DNA of 58,664 bases from Sciscionella marina DSM 45152 (GTDB taxonomy: Bacteria; Actinomycetota; Actinomycetes; Mycobacteriales; Pseudonocardiaceae), in NCBI RefSeq assembly GCF_000379465.1, contig NZ_KB905394.1:1-58664 (forward strand). The letters are read 5' to 3'. How positions within the stretch are numbered: the stretch's first letter is position 1; each line of letters starts with the position of its first letter. This document shows, piece by piece, positions 481 to 56,035 of this stretch. The notes under the pieces are model-generated. The model worked only from the letters and a program-made list of their open reading frames with translations, did not search any database and was not told the origin of the DNA. Made by a program: the position numbers and the translations under genes.

Positions 481-945
481 ATGGCTGGCCACTCCGTTTC
501 CGGTACGGCAGTGTCCGCGTTCTGGCTGCGGCGGTACGGTTCTCCGCTGCGCTGGCCGGTCATGATCATGCTGCTCGTCTCGGCGCTCGCGCACATTCCG
601 GTCGTGGCACCCGAACTACGTGAAACCCCTTATGTGGCAGCACTTTTCCTGCTGCTGATCCTCGCCGATCTGGTGCTGATCGCGGCGTTGTTCCTCCGTG
701 ACTCCGCGGCGGCCTGGACGTTGACCGCGCTCACCACCGGGCTGGCGGCCCTTGCCTATGTGCTGTCCAGAACGGTCGGCCTGCCCGCGCTGTACAACTA
801 CATCGGCGACTGGGTTTCCGTGCCCGGACTCGTGTCCCTGGCCTCCGAGGCAATCGGCTGTGTGCTCGCGGTTTTCGTCCTGATCCGCCACCCGGCTACG
901 GCTGCTATCCCAGCCGCTGAGCCTCGATCAGCTGGAACTTCGTGA
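481..945 (+). CDS. small integral membrane protein, unknown function
   Basis: A 154-residue protein with about four hydrophobic helices (roughly residues 23-45, 52-75, 80-100 and 117-140), a short Arg-containing N-terminus and a polar Pro/Ala-rich C-terminal tail. The start at 481 is chosen because GAAGGAGG lies 7-14 bases upstream; the same frame is open further upstream but without a binding site. Its 3' end overlaps the convergent GH36-like gene by 41 bases. I do not recognise a family. The helix layout recalls small DoxX-like or four-helix membrane proteins, but no diagnostic motif is visible. Confidence 0.75.
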   Translation: MAGHSVSGTAVSAFWLRRYGSPLRWPVMIMLLVSALAHIPVVAPELRETPYVAALFLLLILADLVLIAALFLRDSAAAWTLTALTTGLAALAYVLSRTVGLPALYNYIGDWVSVPGLVSLASEAIGCVLAVFVLIRHPATAAIPAAEPRSAGTS

Positions 946-2968
946 ACTTCAGCCGCACGGTGTTGTGCGCGGCGTCCACGGTGCCGAGCGAGCCGCCGTG
1001 GAACGGGTCGGTCAGCCGGTACCGGCCCGGCCCGAGCCCGCGCAGTTCCACGGTGCCCTCCCAGGAGGGCGCGTAGAAGGCGTAGTGCAGCGTCGAATCC
1101 TTGGCCACGACATGGGTTTCCGGTTTGTCGAAGCCGATGTCGTAGAGTTCGCCGCGGTATTCGCCGGTGGACAACATGTTCTTCTTGTACAGCGCCACCC
1201 ATTGGCGCCAGAGCCGCTCCTTCTCCGGGGTGAGCGCGTATGGGTCCTTCGCCGAACGCGGCGGATAGGTGAACTTGGTCGACAGGATCGCGCCGACACC
1301 GTAGCTGGACGCGAAATCGTCCCCGCCATCGCTGAGCTCGACGTGGTCACCGGCATAGCTGCTGCCCGGGCCCATCAGGGCCTTCATCGACTTGCCCTTG
1401 CTGCGCACCTGGAACGAGGACTCGGGGTCGGAAGCCGGATACTGGTCCACATAGGGCAGATTGTGGAATGCGAAGGCCGTGCCACACGGGCACAGTTCGA
1501 CCACGGCATCCGGCTCGGCCCGGTGTACCGCCTCGTGCACCAGTTTCCAGAACCGTGCCAGTCCCTCCGTCGATTCCTCCGGCCGCGCGTGCCCGTGCGC
1601 CGGATTGTGACAGGGAAGCACGGCGTTGAGGTGCTGTCCGTCGACCTTGATTCCCGCATGACCCCAGTCCCGGATGAACTTCGTCGCCTGGCGCACGAAG
1701 TAGTCGATCACCGGCGGATAGGCGGGGCACAGGGTATAGGAGTCCCACCAGGACACCTTCTGCTTCTCGCCCTTTTCGTTCAGCAGCAGCATATCCGGGC
1801 GCTGCGCGAACAGTTTGCTCGAGGGATGCGCCGCGATCGGGGCCCACCACAGCCGCGGCCGCAGCCCCTTCTCCTTGATCTGCTTGGTGAAGGAACGCAT
1901 ATCCGCTTCCCCGCGCGGGAATTTCTTCGGATCGAGTTCCCAGTCGCCGACATTGGTCTGCCAGCCGTCATCGAGCACAGCCCAGTCCAGGCCTACATCC
2001 TTGGCCTTGGGCAGGGTTCCGAGCACCTGGTCGACGGTGAAATCGCGCTCATAGCCCCAGGCGCACCAGATGGCCTCGAACGCGGGCTCGCCGACCCGGG
2101 GCGCGCGCTGGTCGATATCGGCCATATAGCGGCGATAGCGCTCCAGTGGCACATAGTGGTCGCGGGGATGGGTGATGAGGAACGTGGTGTCGGTGCTCAG
2201 CCGCTGTCCCGGTTTCAGGGTGCGCGCGCTGTCCCCCTCGATCGCGATCATGGCGCCCTTGGTGGTCCGCCGGGTGGGCATCCGCAGCATCCGCGGGACC
2301 GGTTCCACGTGCCCGACCGAGAGCCCGGCTCCGTTGCGCCACACCGTGGCCAGCGGGGTGCCGCCGCCGTAGTCGGAAGCGACCATTCCCAGGGAGTTCT
2401 CCTGGAAGAACCCCTCGGTCATCGGCCGCACCCAGTCCCGCCGGTCCTCGTGGGTGGCACCGGAGAACATATAGAATCCGCCGGACGCGGCCAGCAGCTC
2501 GTGTGCCCCGTTGCGCCATCCGGTGACCTGCAGCGGCGCACCGGAAACGTTGGTGTAGCTCACTTTCATGATGACCATGCCGGAAAGGCGCTGAAACGAG
2601 GTCAGTTCCACCGTCTTGCGCACGCCCTGCTCCGACTCACCGTGCAGGATCACCTGAACTCCGGCGCCGTGCCGGGGATGCCGGGTGTTCCGGCTCTCCC
2701 GCCCGGAGTAGCGGAACGACTCGATGGTGGTGTCGCCGAGCAGCAGGGCCTCGCCGGCGTCGAAACCGGTCACCGGCTCGCCCGCCATCCGCACCCGGCT
2801 GCGCAGGGTGTCGTCGAATTCCACGGTGATGGAATCGTCACCGACCCCGAGCAGATCGGAGCGGCTCGTGGCCCCGGCCACCTGCGCCGTGCCGAATCCC
2901 CCGGCCATGGCCAGACCGGCACCCCCGAGGGCCAGTTTCAGGATGGTTCGCCGATCCATACCGGTCAC
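905..2968 (-). CDS. Tat-exported GH36-like alpha-galactosidase
   Basis: A 687-residue secreted glycoside hydrolase that resembles clan GH-D alpha-galactosidases. The N-terminus carries a twin-arginine signal (DRRTILKLALGGAG followed by a hydrophobic stretch and an Ala-rich cleavage region). A beta-rich domain occupies roughly residues 35-290. A TIM-barrel follows, with DWAVLDDGWQ, RLWWAPIAAH and IKVDGQHLN; Asp443 in the last motif matches the family nucleophile, and the Asp in YPASDPES is a candidate acid/base. The start is GTG with AGGAG seven bases upstream, overlapping the transporter stop as GTGA, so it is translationally coupled. The operon pairs an exported glycosidase with a transporter and a sugar kinase. 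The exact substrate, alpha-galactoside or alpha-N-acetylgalactosaminide, cannot be read from the sequence. Confidence 0.82.
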   Translation of the reverse strand: MTGMDRRTILKLALGGAGLAMAGGFGTAQVAGATSRSDLLGVGDDSITVEFDDTLRSRVRMAGEPVTGFDAGEALLLGDTTIESFRYSGRESRNTRHPRHGAGVQVILHGESEQGVRKTVELTSFQRLSGMVIMKVSYTNVSGAPLQVTGWRNGAHELLAASGGFYMFSGATHEDRRDWVRPMTEGFFQENSLGMVASDYGGGTPLATVWRNGAGLSVGHVEPVPRMLRMPTRRTTKGAMIAIEGDSARTLKPGQRLSTDTTFLITHPRDHYVPLERYRRYMADIDQRAPRVGEPAFEAIWCAWGYERDFTVDQVLGTLPKAKDVGLDWAVLDDGWQTNVGDWELDPKKFPRGEADMRSFTKQIKEKGLRPRLWWAPIAAHPSSKLFAQRPDMLLLNEKGEKQKVSWWDSYTLCPAYPPVIDYFVRQATKFIRDWGHAGIKVDGQHLNAVLPCHNPAHGHARPEESTEGLARFWKLVHEAVHRAEPDAVVELCPCGTAFAFHNLPYVDQYPASDPESSFQVRSKGKSMKALMGPGSSYAGDHVELSDGGDDFASSYGVGAILSTKFTYPPRSAKDPYALTPEKERLWRQWVALYKKNMLSTGEYRGELYDIGFDKPETHVVAKDSTLHYAFYAPSWEGTVELRGLGPGRYRLTDPFHGGSLGTVDAAHNTVRLKFTKFQLIEAQRLG

Positions 2969-3894
2969 GTCAGACTCCTCTCATCGACACTGTCGAGGCC
3001 GGACACCGAATTCGCGTTGCCGCGCTCATCGCTGTAGATCATCAGCGCCGAGCCGCCGATCGCGAGCACAATCCCGATCACCGAATAGATCGAGGGCACC
3101 TTCTGATAGATCGCCAGCGAGACGATGGCGGTGAACACCGGGTACAGGGCGTTGGTGGAGGGCGCGACGATCGTGGCCCGCCCCCGGCTCATCGCCATCA
3201 CCAGGAACAGCGCGCCGATCGCGTTGAGCACCTGGGTGGCCGCGGTGATCGTGGGTGCCTGCCACGGGAACCCGCCGGGGATTCCGCCCATCATCGCGAT
3301 CGCGACCGGGATCAGCAGCAGCCCGCTGATCGTCATATAGGCGAAGGTGGTTCCGTCGTTCACCCCGACCGAGGCCGCTTTCTTCATGAAGAAGGCCTGC
3401 ACGCCCCAGGCGATCAGGATGCCGATCGAGAGCAGCAGCCAGGTGCCCGCGCTCGCGTCCCCGTCGCCACCGGAGATGTTGAACAGCACCAGCGAGACGA
3501 TCGCCGCGATCAGCCCGATGACCGCGATCTTGGTGAGCCGTTCGCGCAGGAACGCGATGGCCATCAGCGCGGTGACCGCCGGGGAGAGCGCGGTGATCGG
3601 GAAGACCAGATACGCGGGCCCGATGGTGAGCGTGTGGAACAGCAGCAACTGCCCGCCCGCCCCGGTGAGCCCGACGATCAGGCCGTAGACCGCGGCGATG
3701 GGGCGCCGGTCGAAGCGGTTCCCGCGCAGCCCGAACACGCACGGGATGAGCATGGTCAGCGCCCAGATGACGTAGACCATCTGATCCGGATAGTGGTACA
3801 GATTGGTCGGCAGATCGGAAAGGGCGCCCCAGACGCCCCAGACGATCACCACGAGAGACGAGTAGAGGATCCAGCTTCTACTGCTTGTCATCAT
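2965..3894 (-). CDS. DMT/EamA-type transporter, probable sugar uptake
   Basis: A 309-residue membrane protein with about ten hydrophobic helices arranged as two homologous halves, as in the drug/metabolite transporter superfamily. Conserved-looking pieces are PITALSPAVTALMAIAFLRE in the first half and the matching IVAPSTNALYPVFTAIVSL in the second. The start at 3894 (ATGATG) follows GGGAGAAG and lies inside the last codons of the kinase gene, a 17-base overlap. The longer upstream frame is antisense-like noise within the kinase. Between a sugar kinase and an exported glycosidase, uptake of the released monosaccharide is the likely job. That is unusual, because actinomycetes mostly use ABC or PTS importers here. 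Efflux cannot be excluded. Confidence 0.8.
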   Translation of the reverse strand: MMTSSRSWILYSSLVVIVWGVWGALSDLPTNLYHYPDQMVYVIWALTMLIPCVFGLRGNRFDRRPIAAVYGLIVGLTGAGGQLLLFHTLTIGPAYLVFPITALSPAVTALMAIAFLRERLTKIAVIGLIAAIVSLVLFNISGGDGDASAGTWLLLSIGILIAWGVQAFFMKKAASVGVNDGTTFAYMTISGLLLIPVAIAMMGGIPGGFPWQAPTITAATQVLNAIGALFLVMAMSRGRATIVAPSTNALYPVFTAIVSLAIYQKVPSIYSVIGIVLAIGGSALMIYSDERGNANSVSGLDSVDERSLT

Positions 3895-4894
3895 CTTCTC
3901 CCAGTGCTGTGCGTGGTGCGGACCGCAGGCGGGCGAGCGCGGTCTCGCCGAGCGGGGCGCAGGCGCGCTTGGCCGCGTAGAGCGCGGCGCCGAAATGCGG
4001 GGCATAGCGGGGTTCGCGCAGTTCGTAGCCGCCGTACCGGTTCGCGAGTTCGTGCGCGAACGCGTCCAGAATCGGCGAACCCGCGTTGAACACCCCGCCC
4101 GAGTAGGAGACCGGAACCGGTTGCCCGTCCCGATAACCGAGGCGTTTCCGGGCCGTGTCCACGATCTCGGCCAGCTCCCGAGCCGCATCGGCGAGAATCT
4201 CGCGGGCCTGCGGATCACCCTTCCCGGCCGCGGTGACCACGAGCCTGCTCAGTGCGGCGATCATGCTGCGGTTGCCCTGCCACCGGTTGAGCACCAGGCC
4301 GACCAGGTCCAGATCCTCGGTGAGTCCCAGGTGTTCGCGCACCAGCGCGTGCAGCGGTCCGATCGGCGACCGGCCATCGCTCATCCTGGTGAAACAGGCC
4401 AGCCCGCGGTTCCCGATCCAGTACGCGGAACCCTCGTCGCCGAACAGTTCGCTCCAGCCGCCGACCCGGGCGATGGTTCCGGCGCGCTCCCCGTAGGCGA
4501 TGGAACCGGTGCCGCTGACCACGTTGATCCCGTCGGCGCCACCAAGCGAACCGGCCCAGCTGCAGACCATGTCGTTGCCGCAGTCGTAGCGATCGTGCCC
4601 GAGAGCGGTACGTGCCGCCGCGTTCAGGGCGGGAAGATCACCGCTCGATTCGCCGTAGGTGGGCAGACCGAAGAAGGCGTGCCGGATGTCGCCGGGTTTG
4701 ATGTCCGCGGCGGAGCACACCTCGGCGACCCCATCGGTGAGCACCCTGGCGACCAGATCGATCCCCGCCGAGAAGTAGTCGGCGGACGGCCCCTGCCACT
4801 GCGCGAGCACCGCACCGGTCTCGGCGACCAGGCAGTAGGCGGTCTTGGTTCCTCCACCGTCGACGCCGAGATACACGGCCACCTCCTCGCCCAC
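3878..4894 (-). CDS. BadF/BcrA ATPase-family sugar kinase (GlcNAc kinase-like)
   Basis: A 338-residue ASKHA-fold kinase. The phosphate-1 loop VDGGGTKT lies near residue 12, SGTGSIAYG forms the second phosphate region, and GGWSELFGDEGSAYWIG is typical of N-acetylglucosamine kinases and the BadF/BadG family. The start is GTG, preceded by AAGGAG at a good distance. It is the first gene of a coupled three-gene operon (kinase, transporter, glycosidase) read from the promoter at 4934-4962. It probably phosphorylates the hexose or N-acetylhexosamine imported by the next gene. The family also contains dehydratase activator ATPases, but the CxxC motifs those use are not seen. Confidence 0.82.
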   Translation of the reverse strand: MGEEVAVYLGVDGGGTKTAYCLVAETGAVLAQWQGPSADYFSAGIDLVARVLTDGVAEVCSAADIKPGDIRHAFFGLPTYGESSGDLPALNAAARTALGHDRYDCGNDMVCSWAGSLGGADGINVVSGTGSIAYGERAGTIARVGGWSELFGDEGSAYWIGNRGLACFTRMSDGRSPIGPLHALVREHLGLTEDLDLVGLVLNRWQGNRSMIAALSRLVVTAAGKGDPQAREILADAARELAEIVDTARKRLGYRDGQPVPVSYSGGVFNAGSPILDAFAHELANRYGGYELREPRYAPHFGAALYAAKRACAPLGETALARLRSAPRTALGEDDDKQ

Positions 4895-4933
4895 GGTGAA
4901 CTCCTTTGTCCGCTCCCAACGGTCTGTCGGCTG

Positions 4934-4962
4934 AACTTATTGGTCTTTAATTGGCTTGTCAA
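4934..4962 (-). promoter_or_regulatory. sigma-70 type promoter of the kinase-transporter-glycosidase operon
   Basis: Read on the minus strand this is TTGACA (4957-4962), a 17-bp spacer and TAAGTT (4934-4939), an unusually good housekeeping promoter for such GC-rich DNA. The AT-rich spacer contains CCAAT twice, 11 bp apart, on the same face of the helix. This is a plausible operator for the divergent GntR regulator. Confidence 0.65.
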
Positions 4963-5051
4963 CGGTCAACATTTGGTATGCATCTGGATCAGTCAGGTTA
5001 CCGGCGCAGGGAATGAGCTGGCACGATCACCGCGAACTTACGGAGTCGACC

Positions 5052-5069
5052 GGTATGCTTCTGGTATGC
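5052..5069 (+). promoter_or_regulatory. GGTATGC direct repeats before the GntR gene
   Basis: GGTATGC occurs at 5052-5058 and 5063-5069, 11 bp apart, and a third copy lies at 4975-4981 beside the -35 of the divergent operon. Three copies of a 7-mer in about 95 bp suggest a binding site, most simply for the adjacent GntR protein. They also contain the rejected upstream ATG of that gene. Confidence 0.4.
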
Positions 5070-5083
5070 CCGAAAGGACGTCG

Positions 5084-5869
5084 ATGCCACGCGGCCTGTT
5101 CGCCGATGACGCGCTGCCGCTCTACGAGCGCACCGCCGCCCGATTGCTCGACGACCTGCACGCCACCGCCCCGCGCGCCGGTGACCGGCTGCCCTCCGAG
5201 CGGGCACTGGCGACCCGGTACGGCGTGTCCCGGGTGACCCTGCGCGCCGCGCTCGCCGAGCTGGAGTCGCGCGGCATCGTGTGCCCGACCTCCTCCCGCG
5301 GCTGGTTCATCGCCGATATCGAGGAAAACGCCACCGAACCGGCGCAGCCCACCATCTCCGCCCCGCAGATCCAGGGCTTCGCGGACTACGCGCAGGCGCA
5401 CGGGCTCAGGACGAGCAGCCAGATCCTGCGCTCCTCGGTCCGCCCGGCGGCCGTGGCCGAGGCCGAGCAGCTGCGCATCGCCCCGGGTGCCGAACTCTTC
5501 GACCTGCTCCGGTTGCGCCTGCTGGACGGGCTGCTCGTGGTGCTCGAACACAACCGACTCCCGCTCGCGGTCTGCCCGGCGCTCGCCGAGACCGATTTCA
5601 GCACCGCCTCGCTGTACGCCACGCTGCGCGCCGCCGATCCGCCGCAACTGCCGCGGGTCGCCGACTACTCCGCCGAGGCGCGGCATCCGACGCCTTCGGA
5701 GAGGGAACTGCTCGAGACCGGGGAGACCATGCCGATGCTCGTGGCCACCCAGCTGACCTTCAACCAGGCGGACCGCCCGATCGAGCTGACCGTCCAGGTC
5801 TACCGGGGCGACCGCTACCGGTTCCGGGCCTCGATCACCAATCAGGCGGTTCCGGTGCAGACTCCCTGA
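5084..5869 (+). CDS. GntR-family regulator, HutC/UTRA type
   Basis: A 261-residue transcription factor. The winged-helix domain occupies about residues 5-75 (LPSERALATRYGVSRVTLRAAL then LESRGIV). A UTRA effector domain follows, ending in the typical IELTVQVYRGDRYRFRAS. UTRA domains usually bind a sugar phosphate or similar small molecule, so the product of the divergent kinase is a natural effector. The start at 5084 is preferred over an in-frame ATG at 5066 because AAAGGA lies just before it. It probably represses the divergent kinase-transporter-glycosidase operon. Confidence 0.88.
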   Translation: MPRGLFADDALPLYERTAARLLDDLHATAPRAGDRLPSERALATRYGVSRVTLRAALAELESRGIVCPTSSRGWFIADIEENATEPAQPTISAPQIQGFADYAQAHGLRTSSQILRSSVRPAAVAEAEQLRIAPGAELFDLLRLRLLDGLLVVLEHNRLPLAVCPALAETDFSTASLYATLRAADPPQLPRVADYSAEARHPTPSERELLETGETMPMLVATQLTFNQADRPIELTVQVYRGDRYRFRASITNQAVPVQTP

Positions 5870-5870
5870 C

Positions 5871-5914
5871 ATAGTCTCGCTCTATACCGCCCATCGGGAG
5901 ATCGCGCTTCCTTG
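5871..5914 (+). promoter_or_regulatory. LysR-type box and promoter element before first amidohydrolase
   Basis: ATAG-N7-CTAT at 5871-5885 is a T-N11-A dyad, the classical LysR recognition box. GCTTCCTTG follows at 5906-5914 and runs into TTGACG, a candidate -35. The same elements with the same spacing recur at 9370-9413 beside the lysR gene. If TTGACG is the -35, the box centre sits near -68, where LysR recognition sites normally are, and transcription would begin at or next to the start codon at 5943. Confidence 0.6.
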
Positions 5915-5942
5915 ACGGCGCTGCCGGCTCGACCATGGACAC

Positions 5943-6956
5943 ATGCCCCGGACCGTCGATGTGCATGCGCATGCCTGGCTGCCGCAAATCCAGTCCCTGG
6001 TGCGCTACCGTCCGGAATACCCGGCGTATGCGGAGCTCGAGGAACTGCGCGCGGGCCGTGCCTCGGCCGGGGTGAGCGCGCGCCGGTTCGCCGAAAACCG
6101 GGGGCTGCTCACCGATCCGGATGCACGCATCGCGGCGATGACCGCTGCCGGGGTCGACGTCCAGGTCGTCTCGGTCTCGCCGACGCAGTACCACTCCTGG
6201 GCGGATCCGGTGCTGGCCTGGGAGCTCGCACAGGCCACCCATGACGGCATCCGGGAACATTGCGCCGCTCATCCGGAGCGATTGTGCGGCCTCGGGGTGG
6301 CGCCGCTGCGTCATCCCGAGACCGCTGTCGCCGCCCTGGAGCACGCGCTTGGCAACGGACTGCGTGGCGTCGAGATCTCCTCACACGCTCCCCTGCCGGA
6401 CGGCGGCACCGTGGAACTCTCCGACCCCGCGCTGAACCCGCTGTGGGCACGCGCCGAAGAACTCGGTGCCGTGCTCTTCCTCCACCCCTGGGGATGCACG
6501 CTCGATGCGCGCCTCGATCGCTGGTATCTGGCCAATTCGGTCGGTCAGCCGGTAGAGCACACGGTCGCCATCACGCACCTGATCTTCGGCGGTGTGCTGG
6601 ACCGGTTTCCGCGGCTACGGCTGCTGATCGCACACGGCGGCGGCTATCTGCCCACCAGCCTCGGGCGCGCCGATCATGCCTGGCGTCACCGCCCGGAGGC
6701 GGCTGGGTGCCGCGAACTACCGAGCACCTATCCGCCCCGGATGTGGTTCGACTCACTGGTGTACACCCCGGAGTCCCTGCATGCCCTGATCCGCGCGGCA
6801 GGCCCGGACCGGGTGCTGCTCGGCTCGGACTATCCGTTCGATATGGGCATCGAGGATCCGGTGCGGCGGCTGGCGGATGCGGTTCCCGATCCGGGGCTCG
6901 CCGCGGCCATCGGCGGCGGGAACGCGGCGGAACTCGGCCTGCTGCCCCATTTCTGA
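5943..6956 (+). CDS. ACMSD-type amidohydrolase/decarboxylase, paralog 1
   Basis: A 337-residue metal-dependent TIM-barrel enzyme of the amidohydrolase-2 (ACMSD) family, which holds nonhydrolytic decarboxylases of aromatic or muconate acids as well as hydrolases. The HxH metal motif is VDVHAHAW at the N-terminus. Later motifs are VFLHPWG-like LFLHPWG, IAHGGGYLP and LLGSDYPFDMG, with the metal-binding Asp in the last. No ribosome binding site precedes the ATG, and the probable -35 is only about 30 bp upstream, so the mRNA may be leaderless. Twenty bases downstream begins an aldehyde dehydrogenase, likely the next step. The substrate is not identifiable here. Confidence 0.82.
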   Translation: MPRTVDVHAHAWLPQIQSLVRYRPEYPAYAELEELRAGRASAGVSARRFAENRGLLTDPDARIAAMTAAGVDVQVVSVSPTQYHSWADPVLAWELAQATHDGIREHCAAHPERLCGLGVAPLRHPETAVAALEHALGNGLRGVEISSHAPLPDGGTVELSDPALNPLWARAEELGAVLFLHPWGCTLDARLDRWYLANSVGQPVEHTVAITHLIFGGVLDRFPRLRLLIAHGGGYLPTSLGRADHAWRHRPEAAGCRELPSTYPPRMWFDSLVYTPESLHALIRAAGPDRVLLGSDYPFDMGIEDPVRRLADAVPDPGLAAAIGGGNAAELGLLPHF

Positions 6957-6976
6957 TCAACCAACGAAGGAGTTCG

Positions 6977-8449
6977 ATGCTCATGCCATCCACGATCCGT
7001 ACCCCGTGGTCCTCTGCGGACCCGGCCGATGTGTTCACTGTGGACAATCCGGCGACCGGTCAGCCCACCGCGGAGGTCCAGGGTGCCGGAGTGGCGCAGG
7101 TGGACGGGGCGGTCCGCGCCGCGCACGAGGCACATTTCGGCTGGAAGGCCCGCACACCACGGGAGCGCGGCCGCTGGCTGTGGCAGATCGCCGCGGCGGT
7201 GCGCGAACACGCCGACGAGATCGCGGCACTGGAATCCAGGGACAACGGCAAACCGGTCACTCAGGCGCGGGAATTCGACCTGGAGGCCGCCATCGCGATC
7301 TTCGAGCTCTTCGCCGGACTGTGCGAGGCCATGCCCGGCCAGGTACGGGACGCGGGCAGCATCCTGGATGTCACCGTGCTGGAGCCCTACGGCGTCATCG
7401 GCGCGATCGTGCCGTTCAACTGGCCGCCACTGCATACCGCGGGCAAACTCGCCCCCGCGCTCGCGGCCGGAAACGCCGTGGTGCTCAAGCCACCCGAGCA
7501 GGCACCGCTTTCCGTACTGCGGATGGTGGAACTGGCCCGCTCGGTGCTCCCGGACGATGTCGTGCACGTCGTCCCGGGAACCGGGAAGATCGGTGCGGCG
7601 CTCGCCGGGCACGAACTGGTCGGGAAGATCTCCTTCACCGGCGCACCCGCGACCGGAACGGCGGTGCTGAAAACGGCTGCGGACAACCTGACTCCTGCCC
7701 TGCTGGAGCTCGGCGGCAAGAACGCGTTGCTGATCTTCGCGGACGCCGACCTGGATTCGGCGCTGCCCTGGGCCCTCGAAGGGGGATTCTTCAACCAGGG
7801 CGAAGCCTGCACCGCCGCCTCCCGCGTCCTCGTGCACGCCGATCGGTATGCGGAGGTCGCCCGGCGCTACGCCGCCGCCGTGCGCCGCCTGCGGGTCGGC
7901 GACGGCGCGGACACGGGCACCCACGTCGGGCCGCTCGTCACCCCGGCGCAACGCAAGCGGGTGCTGGACTACCTGGAGATCGGGGTGGCCGAAGGCGCGG
8001 AAATCGCGGCACAGGCGCCATTGCCCACCGATCCCGCGCTCGCCGAGGGGTACTACGCGCCACCGACCCTGTTCACCGGCGTCGCCCCGGACATGCGCAT
8101 CGCCAGAGAGGAGATCTTCGGCCCGGTGGTGTGCCTGATCCCTTTCCACGACGAGGCCGAGGCGCTGCGCATCGCCAACGGCACAGAATTCGGGCTCGTG
8201 GCAGGGGTTTTCACCCGCGATGCGGAGCGCGCCATGCGGGTCGGCCGGGCACTGCGCGCGGGTATGGTGTTCGTCAACCACTACAACCGCGCGTTCACCG
8301 GAACCCCGTTCGGCGGGGTCGGCGCGAGCGGTTACGGCCGCGAACACGCCCTGGAAACGCTGCAGGAGTTCGGTTACAGCAAGAGCCTGCGGTTGCCCTC
8401 CGGCACCGCCGACATTCCGCGCTGGGCGCCGTCTGTCGAGGTCAGCTGA
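6977..8449 (+). CDS. NAD(P)-dependent aldehyde dehydrogenase
   Basis: A 490-residue enzyme of the classical ALDH superfamily. Visible motifs are VPFNWPP (cofactor/substrate region), [16 protein letters not shown] with the general-base Glu, and [12 protein letters not shown] with the catalytic Cys. The C-terminal [12 protein letters not shown] motif is also present. The ATG at 6977 follows GAAGGAG. It lies 20 bases after the amidohydrolase and is almost certainly cotranscribed, so it probably oxidises a semialdehyde formed in that pathway. Its last 8 bases overlap the convergent lysR gene. Full length, no oddities. Confidence 0.9.
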
Positions 8450-9371
8450 GCTCGGCACGCGCCTCGGTGAGCAAGCCACGCAGCCAGGCATGAGCGGAGT
8501 CCGGATCGTGCATCGGATGCCACCAGAACGCTTCGACGATGGGCACCGCGTCGAACGGGCAGGGCAGTATCCGGACCCCCAATGCCTCCGCCATCCCGGC
8601 GGCGAGCTTGTGCTGGACCAGCGCGAGCCCACCGGTGCGGCGGACGAGTTGCAGCATGCTCAGGAAGGAATCCGCGGTGGCGCACACCCGGGGGGTGACG
8701 CCGAGCAGTTCCATCTGCCGCCACGCAGGCGCACGCCCCAGCGGATTACCGAAGGTTGCCACCCACGGCAGGTTGCGCAGCTCGGCCATGCTCAGCCGGT
8801 CCCCGATCGCCGGGTTGTCCGCGGCCGCCACACAGACCCACCGGTCCCGGAACAGATCCATCGACCGCGGGAGATCGAGGTAGCCGTGCGGCATGAACAC
8901 GCCGTCCACGGTCCGGTAGAACTCCGGATCCCTGCTGAGCACATCCGGGGTGACCGGCTCGAAGCGCACACTGGCCCGCGGTGCCCGCTTTTCCAGCAGT
9001 GCCACCAGATGCGCGCCGATGACACTGATTCCGTAGTCCGAGGAAACGATGGTGAAAACCCGCTCGGAGCCCGCCGGATCGAAGCTCGATTCGGCGGAGA
9101 AGACCCGTTCGACCGCGACCACGGCGACATTGGTGAGCGGGAGCAACTGGGCCGCGAACGGGGTGAGCTGATAGTGATTCCCGGACCTGGTCAGCAGATC
9201 ATCGGAGAAGTGCCTGCGCAGCCGGGCCAATACCGCGGACAACGTCGGCTGGGTGCGACCGAGACGCTGCGCCGCACCGGTGACCGTGCGCTCGGTCAGC
9301 AGCGCATGCAAGGCGTGCAGGTGATTGTTGTCCAGGCTGTGCAGGTTCGCCGGCTCGGACTCCATGGACAT
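8442..9371 (-). CDS. LysR-type regulator of the amidohydrolase genes
   Basis: A 309-residue LysR-family protein: an N-terminal winged helix-turn-helix (residues about 10-70, [20 protein letters not shown]) and a substrate-binding domain after it. It is divergent from the second amidohydrolase gene, and a LysR box covers its start. The minus-strand reading of that box contains TATAGA ending 8 bases before the ATG at 9371, which suggests a leaderless, autoregulated mRNA. An alternative ATG lies at 9365. The same box occurs in front of the first amidohydrolase, so both enzymes are the likely regulon. Confidence 0.88.
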
Positions 9372-9413
9372 AGGGCCAGTCTATATCCGGCATGGAACGG
9401 ATTTGCTTCCTTG
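9370..9413 (+). promoter_or_regulatory. LysR-type box and promoter element before second amidohydrolase
   Basis: ATAG-N7-CTAT at 9370-9384 (T-N11-A) and GCTTCCTTG at 9405-9413 repeat the layout seen at 5871-5914. The full shared pattern is ACATAG, 6 bases, TCTATA, 5 bases, CAT, 11 bases, GCTTCCTTG. It lies between the divergent lysR gene and the amidohydrolase, the normal place for an autoregulated LysR site. Confidence 0.65.
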
Positions 9414-10401
9414 GCTACAGCGCGCGCGGCATCCTCGGATGTGTGACCGGATTACTCGATGTGCACGCGCATTTCACCCCGCCGACCACGGCCCGGGAAC
9501 GACAGGCCCGGTGGCAGGCGATGCGCGCGAAGCGGTTCCTCGCACCGCAGCCCTACCACTGGACCGTGGCGGGAACACTGGACTACATGGACCGCGCGGG
9601 CGTCGCGATGCAATTGCTCAGCAATATCCCCAAAACTCCCGATGCGCTCCGGGAGTCCAACGACTACGGCGCCGCGCTCGTCGCCGCCCATCCCACCCGA
9701 TTCGGTCTGCTCGCCGCGCTGCCGACCGATGACCCGCGGGCCGCGCTTGCCGAGATCGCGCGCTGCGCCGACGAGCTGCACGTGGACGGATTCGCCGTGA
9801 CCTGCGACTACAACGGCGTCTCGCTCGGTGACCCGAGCCTGGAACCGGTATGGGCGGAACTCGACCGTCGGGGCGCGACCGTGTTCGCCCACCCGGATGC
9901 TTACGCACCCGCGAACCTCGGCCGCCCCAGCCCGTTGCTCGAGGTCGCCTTCGAAACCGCCCGCACCGTCGTGGACCTGCTGTACGCCGGGATTCTGCGC
10001 CGGTTCCCGAATTTCCGGCTCATCCTCGCGCACTGCGGCGGCGCGCTGCCCGCGCTCGCCGGGCGCCTGGAGCTGCTCGGCACCCAGGACTGGGTGCCGA
10101 ACCCGAACCGGATCGAGCAACACGAGATCCGCGCGCAGCTCGCCGGGCTGTATCTGGACACCGCGGCGACCGGAACCGGGCATTCCCTGGCCCCCGCACT
10201 GGCCATGACCTCACCGGAGCACCTCGTCTACGGCTCGGACAGCGGGGTGCCGTGCAGCACCGAAACGACACTGGAGGCAAACCGGCAGGCGCTCGCGGAC
10301 TTCACCGGGCTGCCGAGGGAGCAACGCGCGGCCATCGGCCACAACGCACTGCGGCTGTTTCCCGCTGCTGTGGCCCGGATCGATCGAGCCCCGGGAGCCG
10401 A

Positions 10402-11954
<1,553 letters not shown>

Positions 11955-55105: not shown

Positions 55106-56035
55106 TCACTGCCGGTGAGGCGGCCGCACTCCAGGGATGGTGGTCATCTGCTCGGCGAGGAAGTCCCGGAGCAGCCGGACTCGAGCGATATCGGCCCGTT
55201 CCGGCACGACGAGCATGTTCAGTGGCATCGGCGCACAGCTGTACCCGGGGAGCACGGTGTGCAGCAACCCGTCGCGGAGCAGATCATCGACGAGCCACTG
55301 GGGTACGGGCGAGACACCGCGACCGCTGAGAAGGGCCTCCCGAGCCGCATGACCGTGGTCGATGCGGAGACGGGGAGTGAAGGTAGCGATGTGCGCCGTG
55401 CCCTGCTCATCGATGAGGGTCAGCTCGTGGCTTCTGGCGACGCCCGTCCGGCGGATCACGTCGTGCGAAAAGAGATCTTCCGGCGACCCCGGCGTCCCGC
55501 GCCGCGCGAGATAGGTGGGGGAAGCCACGAGAATCTGGTGCGCTTCGCCGAGCGGGCGCAGGCGCAGTTCACTGTCCGGCTGCTCGCCGAGCGCGATGGC
55601 GATATCCACGCCGTCACGGATCAGATCGGAGCGTTCATCGGTGAGGACGAAATCCACGCGAATGTCGGGGTGCCGATCCTGGAACTCGAAGATCAGTCTG
55701 CTCAGCTGCAGGACGCCGAAGAAAGCCGAGCAGGATACGCGCACTTTTCCGGACGCGTCGGCCTTGGCGTCCTCGAGCTCCTGGCCCGCCTGCTCGACCT
55801 GACGCAGAATTTCCGTGGCACGCGCGTAATAGCGGCTCCCCTCGTCGGTCAACGCGATGCTTCTGGTGGTGCGGCTGAACACGGAAACCCCGAGCGCATC
55901 CTCCAGATCGCGCACATGCCGCGTGACGGTGGACTGGCCGACACCGAGATCCCGTGCGACGGCGGAGAAACTGCCACTTTCGGCGACCCGGACGAAGGTG
56001 CGCATTCGATCGAGCGTGACTTCTGATTTATGCAT
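55106..56035 (-). CDS. LysR-type regulator
   Basis: A 309-residue LysR protein of the CrgA/DsdC-like branch. RTFVRVAESGSFSAVARDLG with VGQSTVTRHVRDLE is the helix-turn-helix, and VRVSCSAFFGVLQL and RDGVDIAIALGEQPDSEL belong to the ligand domain. It is divergent from the deacetylase/NmrA-like pair with only 67 bases between starts, so it most likely controls them. No clear T-N11-A box was found in that gap. Confidence 0.9.
   Translation of the reverse strand: MHKSEVTLDRMRTFVRVAESGSFSAVARDLGVGQSTVTRHVRDLEDALGVSVFSRTTRSIALTDEGSRYYARATEILRQVEQAGQELEDAKADASGKVRVSCSAFFGVLQLSRLIFEFQDRHPDIRVDFVLTDERSDLIRDGVDIAIALGEQPDSELRLRPLGEAHQILVASPTYLARRGTPGSPEDLFSHDVIRRTGVARSHELTLIDEQGTAHIATFTPRLRIDHGHAAREALLSGRGVSPVPQWLVDDLLRDGLLHTVLPGYSCAPMPLNMLVVPERADIARVRLLRDFLAEQMTTIPGVRPPHRQ

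Follow-up and report, generated by a model that had tools for sequence, protein, structure and literature searches.

LysR-type transcriptional regulators (LTTRs) are generally described as recognizing the motif T-N11-A, with separate recognition and activation sites (PMC11739112, PMC5002191), and in the LTTR model the effector shifts the tetramer bound to these sites (PMC11739112). The nod box, a 47 bp operator with the half-sites ATC-N9-GAT, is bound by the LysR-type protein NodD (PMC5596368). Here, a stretch of 58,664 nucleotides (58.7 kb) from Sciscionella marina DSM 45152 (contig NZ_KB905394.1, positions 1 to 58,664; hereafter the window) was analysed, in which two amidohydrolase genes (A and B) are each preceded by the same spaced pattern, with a LysR-type regulator gene located at 8442-9371 on the reverse strand. 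Both stretches very probably constitute one and the same nod-box-type operator-promoter (about 47 bp plus a −10 element), through which this regulator would control both amidohydrolase genes and probably its own gene.

As in general LysR systems, a T-N11-A box is found upstream, a second conserved part lies beside the promoter and the regulator gene is adjacent. Unlike the general LysR motif, the pattern extends ungapped over about 44 columns plus the −10 across many genera, and the best scores at 30 other LysR loci of the same genome do not exceed 10.4 bits. Regulators of the NahR/DntR type are relatives at the protein level, the best match among solved structures being 1utb (E 4.2e-28), which is presumably DntR. 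NahR was also near in a tree of 74 regulators, and in a second tree it lay outside the group joining NodD and the actinobacterial clade that holds the window regulator, and the nahR-salA intergenic region showed no site by the actinobacterial matrix (best score −9.3 bits).

The paired sites and their promoter geometry

An earlier note on this DNA had described an exact pair of motifs with equal spacing and different bases in between, a description that holds in full: ACATAG-N6-TCTATA-N5-CAT-N11-GCTTCCTTG matches without a single mismatch both at 5869-5914 and at 9368-9413. The full spaced pattern, allowing up to 3 mismatches, had 0 matches in 100 dinucleotide-preserving shuffles. Moreover, the 21-letter core ATAG-N7-CTATA-N5-CAT-N11-GCTTCCTTG, at the same tolerance, appeared at two places in the whole genome (8.54 Mb, 86 contigs), both in the window, and the reversed control gave 0. 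A chance origin of the pair was rejected, since the shuffles gave nothing and the core stands alone in the genome. Each copy contains ATAG-N7-CTAT, and hence T-N11-A, upstream of the target gene and with the regulator gene adjacent, as expected of a LysR box.

Upstream of amidohydrolase A, all elements lie on the forward strand. The distal operator half-sites ATAG-N7-CTAT (columns 1-15) are at 5871-5885 and form the predicted LysR recognition site, centred at about −65. They are followed by the proximal part at 5892-5914, composed of CAT (columns 22-24) and GCTTCCTTG (5906-5914), which is the predicted activation site overlapping the −35 region, and by the −10-like hexamer GACCAT at 5931-5936 (NANNNT at register 61). 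Upstream of amidohydrolase B, on the same strand, the distal half-sites ATAG-N7-CTAT at 9370-9384 lie on the start of lysR, the proximal part is at 9391-9413 (CAT and GCTTCCTTG, the latter at 9405-9413) and the −10-like hexamer CATCCT, again at register 61, is at 9430-9435. A matrix built from 26 sites of distant relatives, with locus L012 included among them, ranked these two sites first and second in the 58.7-kb window (24.3 and 18.4 bits), with the next-best place at 9.7 bits and the reversed window reaching 7.7 bits.

A total of 40 sites were collected from the window and from the relatives of the regulator described below; near-copies from L003 (two), L006 (one) and L015 were left out of the set, no site came from L021 or L023, and L025, L033 and L036 each contributed one of their two sites. 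The sites were found by columns 1-44 only, so the −10 and start-codon columns are independent of site finding. The hexamer NANNNT started at column 61 in 23 of the 40 sites and at column 62 in 17, compared with at most 2 of 40 for any other register between 52 and 75. Furthermore, TTCC occupied columns 38-41 in all 40, and TTCCTT (columns 38-43) thus stands 17-18 bp before the −10. With the predicted +1 set seven bases after the hexamer, an ATG or GTG opening a reading frame of at least 250 amino acids was found within 1 nt of it in 17 of the 40 sites, including both in the window, compared with 0-5 for windows of 3 nt displaced by over 2 nt. In particular, ATG 5943 coincides with the predicted +1 and GTG 9443 comes one base later, the +1 being itself a prediction. 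Transcription probably starts at or beside each amidohydrolase start codon, which would yield a leaderless mRNA.

Counted from this +1, ATAG-N7-CTAT is centred at about −65 and GCTTCCTTG runs from about −37 to −29, in agreement with the box near −65 and second site near −35 that the earlier note had given for LysR proteins. The distance of 37 or 38 bp to the start codon given there is correct if counted from the first base of GCTTCCTTG and incorrect from its last base, from which it is 28 or 29 bp. The likeness to the nod-box column pattern, the −10, whose position hardly varies, and the start codon at or beside the predicted +1 go beyond what had been noted.

A possible but rather unlikely alternative is that LysR touches only the distal ATAG-N7-CTAT, and that GCTTCCTTG and the −10 form a weak sigma promoter at a fixed distance from it. 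The spacing of 17 or 18 bp between TTCCTT and NANNNT is that of a normal promoter, and the invariance of TTCC over the 40 collected sites also fits a promoter element. However, columns between the two parts are likewise kept among the 14 close sites (A23 and T24 in all 14, G26 and A32 in 13, T33 in 12). Moreover, the register from TTCC to the distal box is fixed, whereas the −10 moves by 1 bp, although the fixed columns come partly from the ungapped search, and four nod boxes share TT at columns 38-39. GCTTCC may be contacted by LysR, by the sigma factor or by the two together.

The operator-promoter with two regulator-bound parts is described here as a proposed scheme on the lines of the LTTR model, drawn up from the sequence, its conservation, its tie to the LysR clade, the −10 and start-codon registers and the agreement with nod boxes, all of which were computed. 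The regulator encoded at 8442-9371 would act as a tetramer, with one dimer on the distal ATAG-N7-CTAT at about −65. Once the inducer is bound, the second dimer would move onto the proximal part CAT...GCTTCC (about −51 to −32), beside RNA polymerase and the −35 region, activating amidohydrolase A together with the aldehyde dehydrogenase gene behind it, and amidohydrolase B. Since the distal box of the second site covers the lysR start, the regulator probably limits its own gene by autorepression. The inducer is probably an aromatic or ring-cleavage compound, as suggested by the targets in the wider clade (FAA hydrolase, FAD monooxygenase, glyoxalase/dioxygenase-fold and cyclase genes). These, together with BKACE and transporter genes, were found as neighbours or targets in relatives, and the neighbours suggest ring-cleavage catabolism in general terms.

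Conservation of the pattern beside related regulators

Ten loci of 8.7-10.9 kb encoding relatives of the LysR protein were fetched (L003-L012). The identity of the regulator was 97% in the sister species Sciscionella sediminilitoris (L003) and 48-76% in the others, which belong to Amycolatopsis, Streptomyces, Thermocatellispora, Mycolicibacterium, Streptantibioticus and Microbacterium. Amidohydrolase A had a relative in all ten loci, the aldehyde dehydrogenase in nine (L012 being without it) and amidohydrolase B, at 63-82% identity, in five (L003-L006 and L011). The spaced motif appeared in nine of the ten, with two copies each in L003, L004, L007, L008 and L010 and one in L005, L006, L009 and L011, and was also found in a further locus, L014. 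The tenth, L012, had a diverged motif before a glyoxalase/dioxygenase-fold gene, in which the distal box and an in-register TTCC are present and TAT replaces CAT, a site that the close-site matrix does not pick. In Amycolatopsis, Streptomyces, Thermocatellispora, Mycolicibacterium and Streptantibioticus, the same spacing was found next to the orthologues of lysR, of an amidohydrolase gene or of the aldehyde dehydrogenase gene. The check put forward in the earlier note, that relatives keeping the genes should keep the spaced pattern, was run with a positive outcome, and this conservation supports its proposal that the regulator controls both genes.

The motif held its position before the target gene whether lysR was divergent or upstream in the same direction. 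In the window, L003 and L004 the box lies at the lysR start, and in L005-L011 at or just past the lysR stop, which ties the motif to the target promoter and not to the lysR start codon. A copy of the motif preceded a substrate-binding protein gene (PF09084) in L007 and the aldehyde dehydrogenase gene in L008 and L010.

These observations bear on three further explanations. That an amidohydrolase gene was recently duplicated along with the DNA upstream of it, so that the promoters are alike by descent and not by selection, is very improbable. Both amidohydrolases do belong to PF04909, but the sequence separating the fixed letters is not the same, the proteins share only about 26-30% identity with each other's orthologues, and the fixed letters recur in other genera before amidohydrolase, aldehyde-dehydrogenase and transporter genes. 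Action of a different regulator through both sites, for instance the GntR-type protein encoded at 5066-5869, whose gene ends immediately before the first site, is slightly less credible still: at E 1e-10 this protein was matched only in the sister species (L003) among L003-L012, L014 and L015 (loci of 3.9-10.9 kb), but the motif goes together with lysR and is found again next to distant regulators of this LysR clade. Finally, a coding or RNA constraint, to which ATG 9371 (lysR) and the upstream in-frame ATG 9392 of amidohydrolase B inside the second copy might point, can practically be dismissed, as the first copy overlaps no start codon and the motif of L005-L011 is at or past the lysR stop.

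Two features of individual close loci were also recorded. In S. sediminilitoris, residues 2-126 of amidohydrolase B stand alone before the esterase gene (L003:4552-4926), so that the gene looks truncated, with operator and regulator kept. In two Streptomyces loci an extra site of the same type was found (L005:1469-1512 and L006:3687-3730; 33.7 bits with the distant-site matrix), followed in L005 by a gene of the metallo-beta-lactamase fold (PF00753). The gene behind this extra site is likely a further member of the regulon.

A search of 397 genomes of the order gave 77 with a LysR relative at E 1e-60 or better, and loci were taken from 30 of the best places. The distant set, L016-L042, has 27 loci with regulator identities of 47-53%. 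Using a matrix of 13 close sites, none of them from this set, the best match lay at the lysR edge and pointed outward in all except L021. With the 40-site matrix, leaving out the locus under test, the best site was at the lysR edge, pointing outward and within the set window, in 26 of the 27 (25 at 15.6-46.1 bits, and L023 at 6.0), the chance of such a placement being about 0.025 per locus. In a strand-aware recount, 25 of these 26 sites were divergent at the lysR start, and that of L042 was at the lysR end. A new set of 27 loci was then drawn from a class-wide search of 394 genomes and scanned over the same windows. Here, the best site was at the lysR edge in 17 loci and scored at least 20 bits in 14 of these, with reversed controls of up to 1.8 bits, and the NANNNT register agreed in 15 of the 17.

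As a control, 30 of the 68 HTH_1 (helix-turn-helix) places in the own genome were scanned; the best scores, at most 10.4 bits, fell at the lysR edge in 4 of the 30, and the tree of 74 regulators set these 30 paralogues apart (100/100). Weak ATC-N9-GAT or ATA-N9-TAT sites were seen before unrelated lysR genes in L072 (10.4 bits), L075 (5.6 bits) and L082 (5.5 bits); those of L072 and L075 have NANNNT at register 62. The three sites may represent a weaker version of this layout outside the clade, in other groups of LysR regulators.

Several of these results weigh against the proposed operator-promoter or narrow its reach. In L016-L042, several scores of the 13-site matrix did not exceed the top score of the reversed controls (5.1 bits), and the distant loci are related, so that a binomial product overstates the certainty. 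Two of them, L021 and L023, form one clade and are without a clear site beside lysR, the operator having possibly been lost or changed there. Among the new loci, 10 of the 27 fail the preset rule, and 3 of the 17 that pass are below 10 bits (L087, L101 and L106). Of the failing ones, L092, L093 and L107 have strong sites beyond the windows, and no convincing site was seen in L086, L100, L102, L104, L105, L109 and L111, the 18.4 bits of L100 being at an unrelated place. The start codon was at the predicted +1 in only 1 of the 17 new-set sites, which makes a leaderless start at most a trait of some lineages. Regarding the controls, the edge matches were in L069 (9.3 bits), L072 (10.4), L075 (5.6) and L083 (−4.9), and three of the four lie at the lysR start and show the −10 register; part of the layout may thus be common to more LysR regulators. 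In addition, a pattern scan of the 397 genomes of the order (19 letters with one Y, up to 2 mismatches) found 7 true places versus 6 reversed ones, and only position singles out 5 of the 7. The class-wide pattern scan of 394 genomes gave 5 places versus 3 reversed ones; three were already known, and one (G572) adjoins a LysR relative of 37% identity. Overall, the strong form of the motif marks this LysR clade, and a faint form of the layout may extend wider.

The half-sites also varied with the recognition helix. The residues aligned to window positions 39 and 43, which presumably face the DNA, were Arg and Thr in the 9 distinct amidohydrolase-clade regulators compared, and among 44 other regulators Arg at 39 occurred in 1 and Thr at 43 in 2. 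With Thr or Ser at position 43, column 3 was C in 0 of 13 and column 13 was G in 4 of 13, versus 27 of 40 and 37 of 40, respectively, with Ala. Because many of the regulators compared are near kin, this link between residue 43 and the half-site is a lead and no proof.

Relation to the nod box

Six rhizobial or Pseudomonas regions were scanned with the actinobacterial matrix. For each of the four nod structural genes examined, the best ungapped match in the upstream region fell on the nod box: S. meliloti nodA (1.1 bits; next-best place −11.2), hsnD (6.6; next −8.8) and hsnA (9.8; next −0.8), and R. etli nodA (6.8; next −6.3), with reversed controls of −10 to −14 bits. Two further LysR genes adjacent to nod genes also had a site at their start (L112, 13.7 bits; L121, 21.0 bits), and the regulators they encode group with NodD. 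In the tree of 74 regulators, NodD was sister to the actinobacterial clade holding the window regulator (99/94). In a second tree, NodD and a Massilia protein were together sister to that clade (joint group 100/97), with a warning of long branches. Seven non-nod proteobacterial relatives were scanned as well, of which Massilia (6.0 bits; reversed −3.6) and Variovorax SRS16 (0.2 bits; reversed −5.8) had a weak best match at the lysR start; in the remaining five the best match was not at the lysR start.

Compared column by column, the nod box and the motif share, in the same ungapped register, AT at columns 1-2, 14-15 and 23-24 and TT at 38-39, and in both systems the regulator gene lies beside the operator. 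On the other hand, the half-sites are ATA-N9-TAT in the window and ATC-N9-GAT in the nod box, although ATC-N9-GAT is also seen at many sites in the more distant part of the clade. The targets differ too, catabolic amidohydrolase genes in one case and nod genes in the other, and the start codon at the predicted +1 is found at the window sites, unlike the nod box. Operators of some clade members from other orders come closer, with 36 of 47 letters shared between L110 and the hsnA box and 33 of 47 between L097 and the nodA box; for comparison, the four nod boxes have 29-39 of 47 letters in common with one another.

Some figures speak against this kinship. The window sites match nod boxes in 12-19 of 47 letters, fewer than in the best matches that arise by chance in loci as long as these, so that their relationship to nod boxes rests on the register and on the chain of intermediates. 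A stretch upstream of nodD3, with no nod box by eye, scored 2.8 bits, higher than the nodA box (1.1), and the top non-nod score (16.2 bits) was inside the LysR gene of Variovorax boronicumulans. Thus, the window element is not a nod box proper, since its half-sites, letters and targets differ, and it would work like one as far as the sequence tells.

A tentative proposal is that the nod box may be older than nodulation, being an operator common to NodD and a large actinobacterial LysR clade whose targets are genes of ring cleavage and related catabolism. In the branch leading to the window regulator, ATC/GAT would then have changed to ATA/TAT together with Ala to Thr in the recognition helix (and the neighbouring Arg), and several lineages would have fused the operator to a leaderless start. 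No description of actinobacterial nod boxes was recognized among the papers found in one open-access library, judging by titles and the openings of abstracts, and their absence from print is weakly supported.

For this LysR clade, the pattern provides a predictive rule that allows the operator, the −10 and, in many cases, the start codon to be located in the sequence, and the targets to be listed for each genome. It also bears on the origin of NodD and the nod box, as some actinobacterial operators, located before catabolic genes, are as nod-box-like as nod boxes are mutually. Moreover, it offers a simple test case of one recognition-helix residue setting the half-site and, if the nod box does predate nodulation, a system in which operator and regulator can be traced as they change together.

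Genes of the locus

Amidohydrolase A is encoded at 5943-6956 on the forward strand, from the ATG at the predicted +1 (Amidohydro_2, PF04909, E 2.9e-44), and its nearest PDB match is ACMSD, a decarboxylase (E 2.7e-52). It is followed on the same strand by the aldehyde dehydrogenase gene at 6977-8449 (PF00171), its neighbour also in relatives, and the two probably form one transcription unit. The LysR-type regulator (8442-9371, reverse strand) has a helix-turn-helix domain (PF00126, E 1.5e-13) and a substrate-binding domain (PF03466, E 8.2e-15), and its start codon, ATG 9371, overlaps the distal half-site of the second operator. Amidohydrolase B (PF04909, E 1.6e-30) is encoded at 9443-10465 on the forward strand, from the GTG one base past the predicted +1; the in-frame ATG 9392 inside the motif was judged a less likely start. 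Its top PDB match is a metal-dependent hydrolase (E 4.2e-22), followed by decarboxylases, and neither amidohydrolase was given a name by NCBIfam.

A second LysR-type helix-turn-helix in the window (55838-56014) falls outside the clade, with a best matrix score of 6.8 bits that is not at the edge. The locus adjoins a separate cluster at 905-5869, with a BadF/BcrA-type ATPase gene and the GntR-type regulator gene (5066-5869), both also present in the sister species, and with a gene at 2965-4218 that is transporter-like as judged by eye only. At the other end, the 3′ ends of amidohydrolase B (forward strand) and of a carboxylesterase-family gene (reverse strand, PF00135) overlap by 64 bp (10402-10465).

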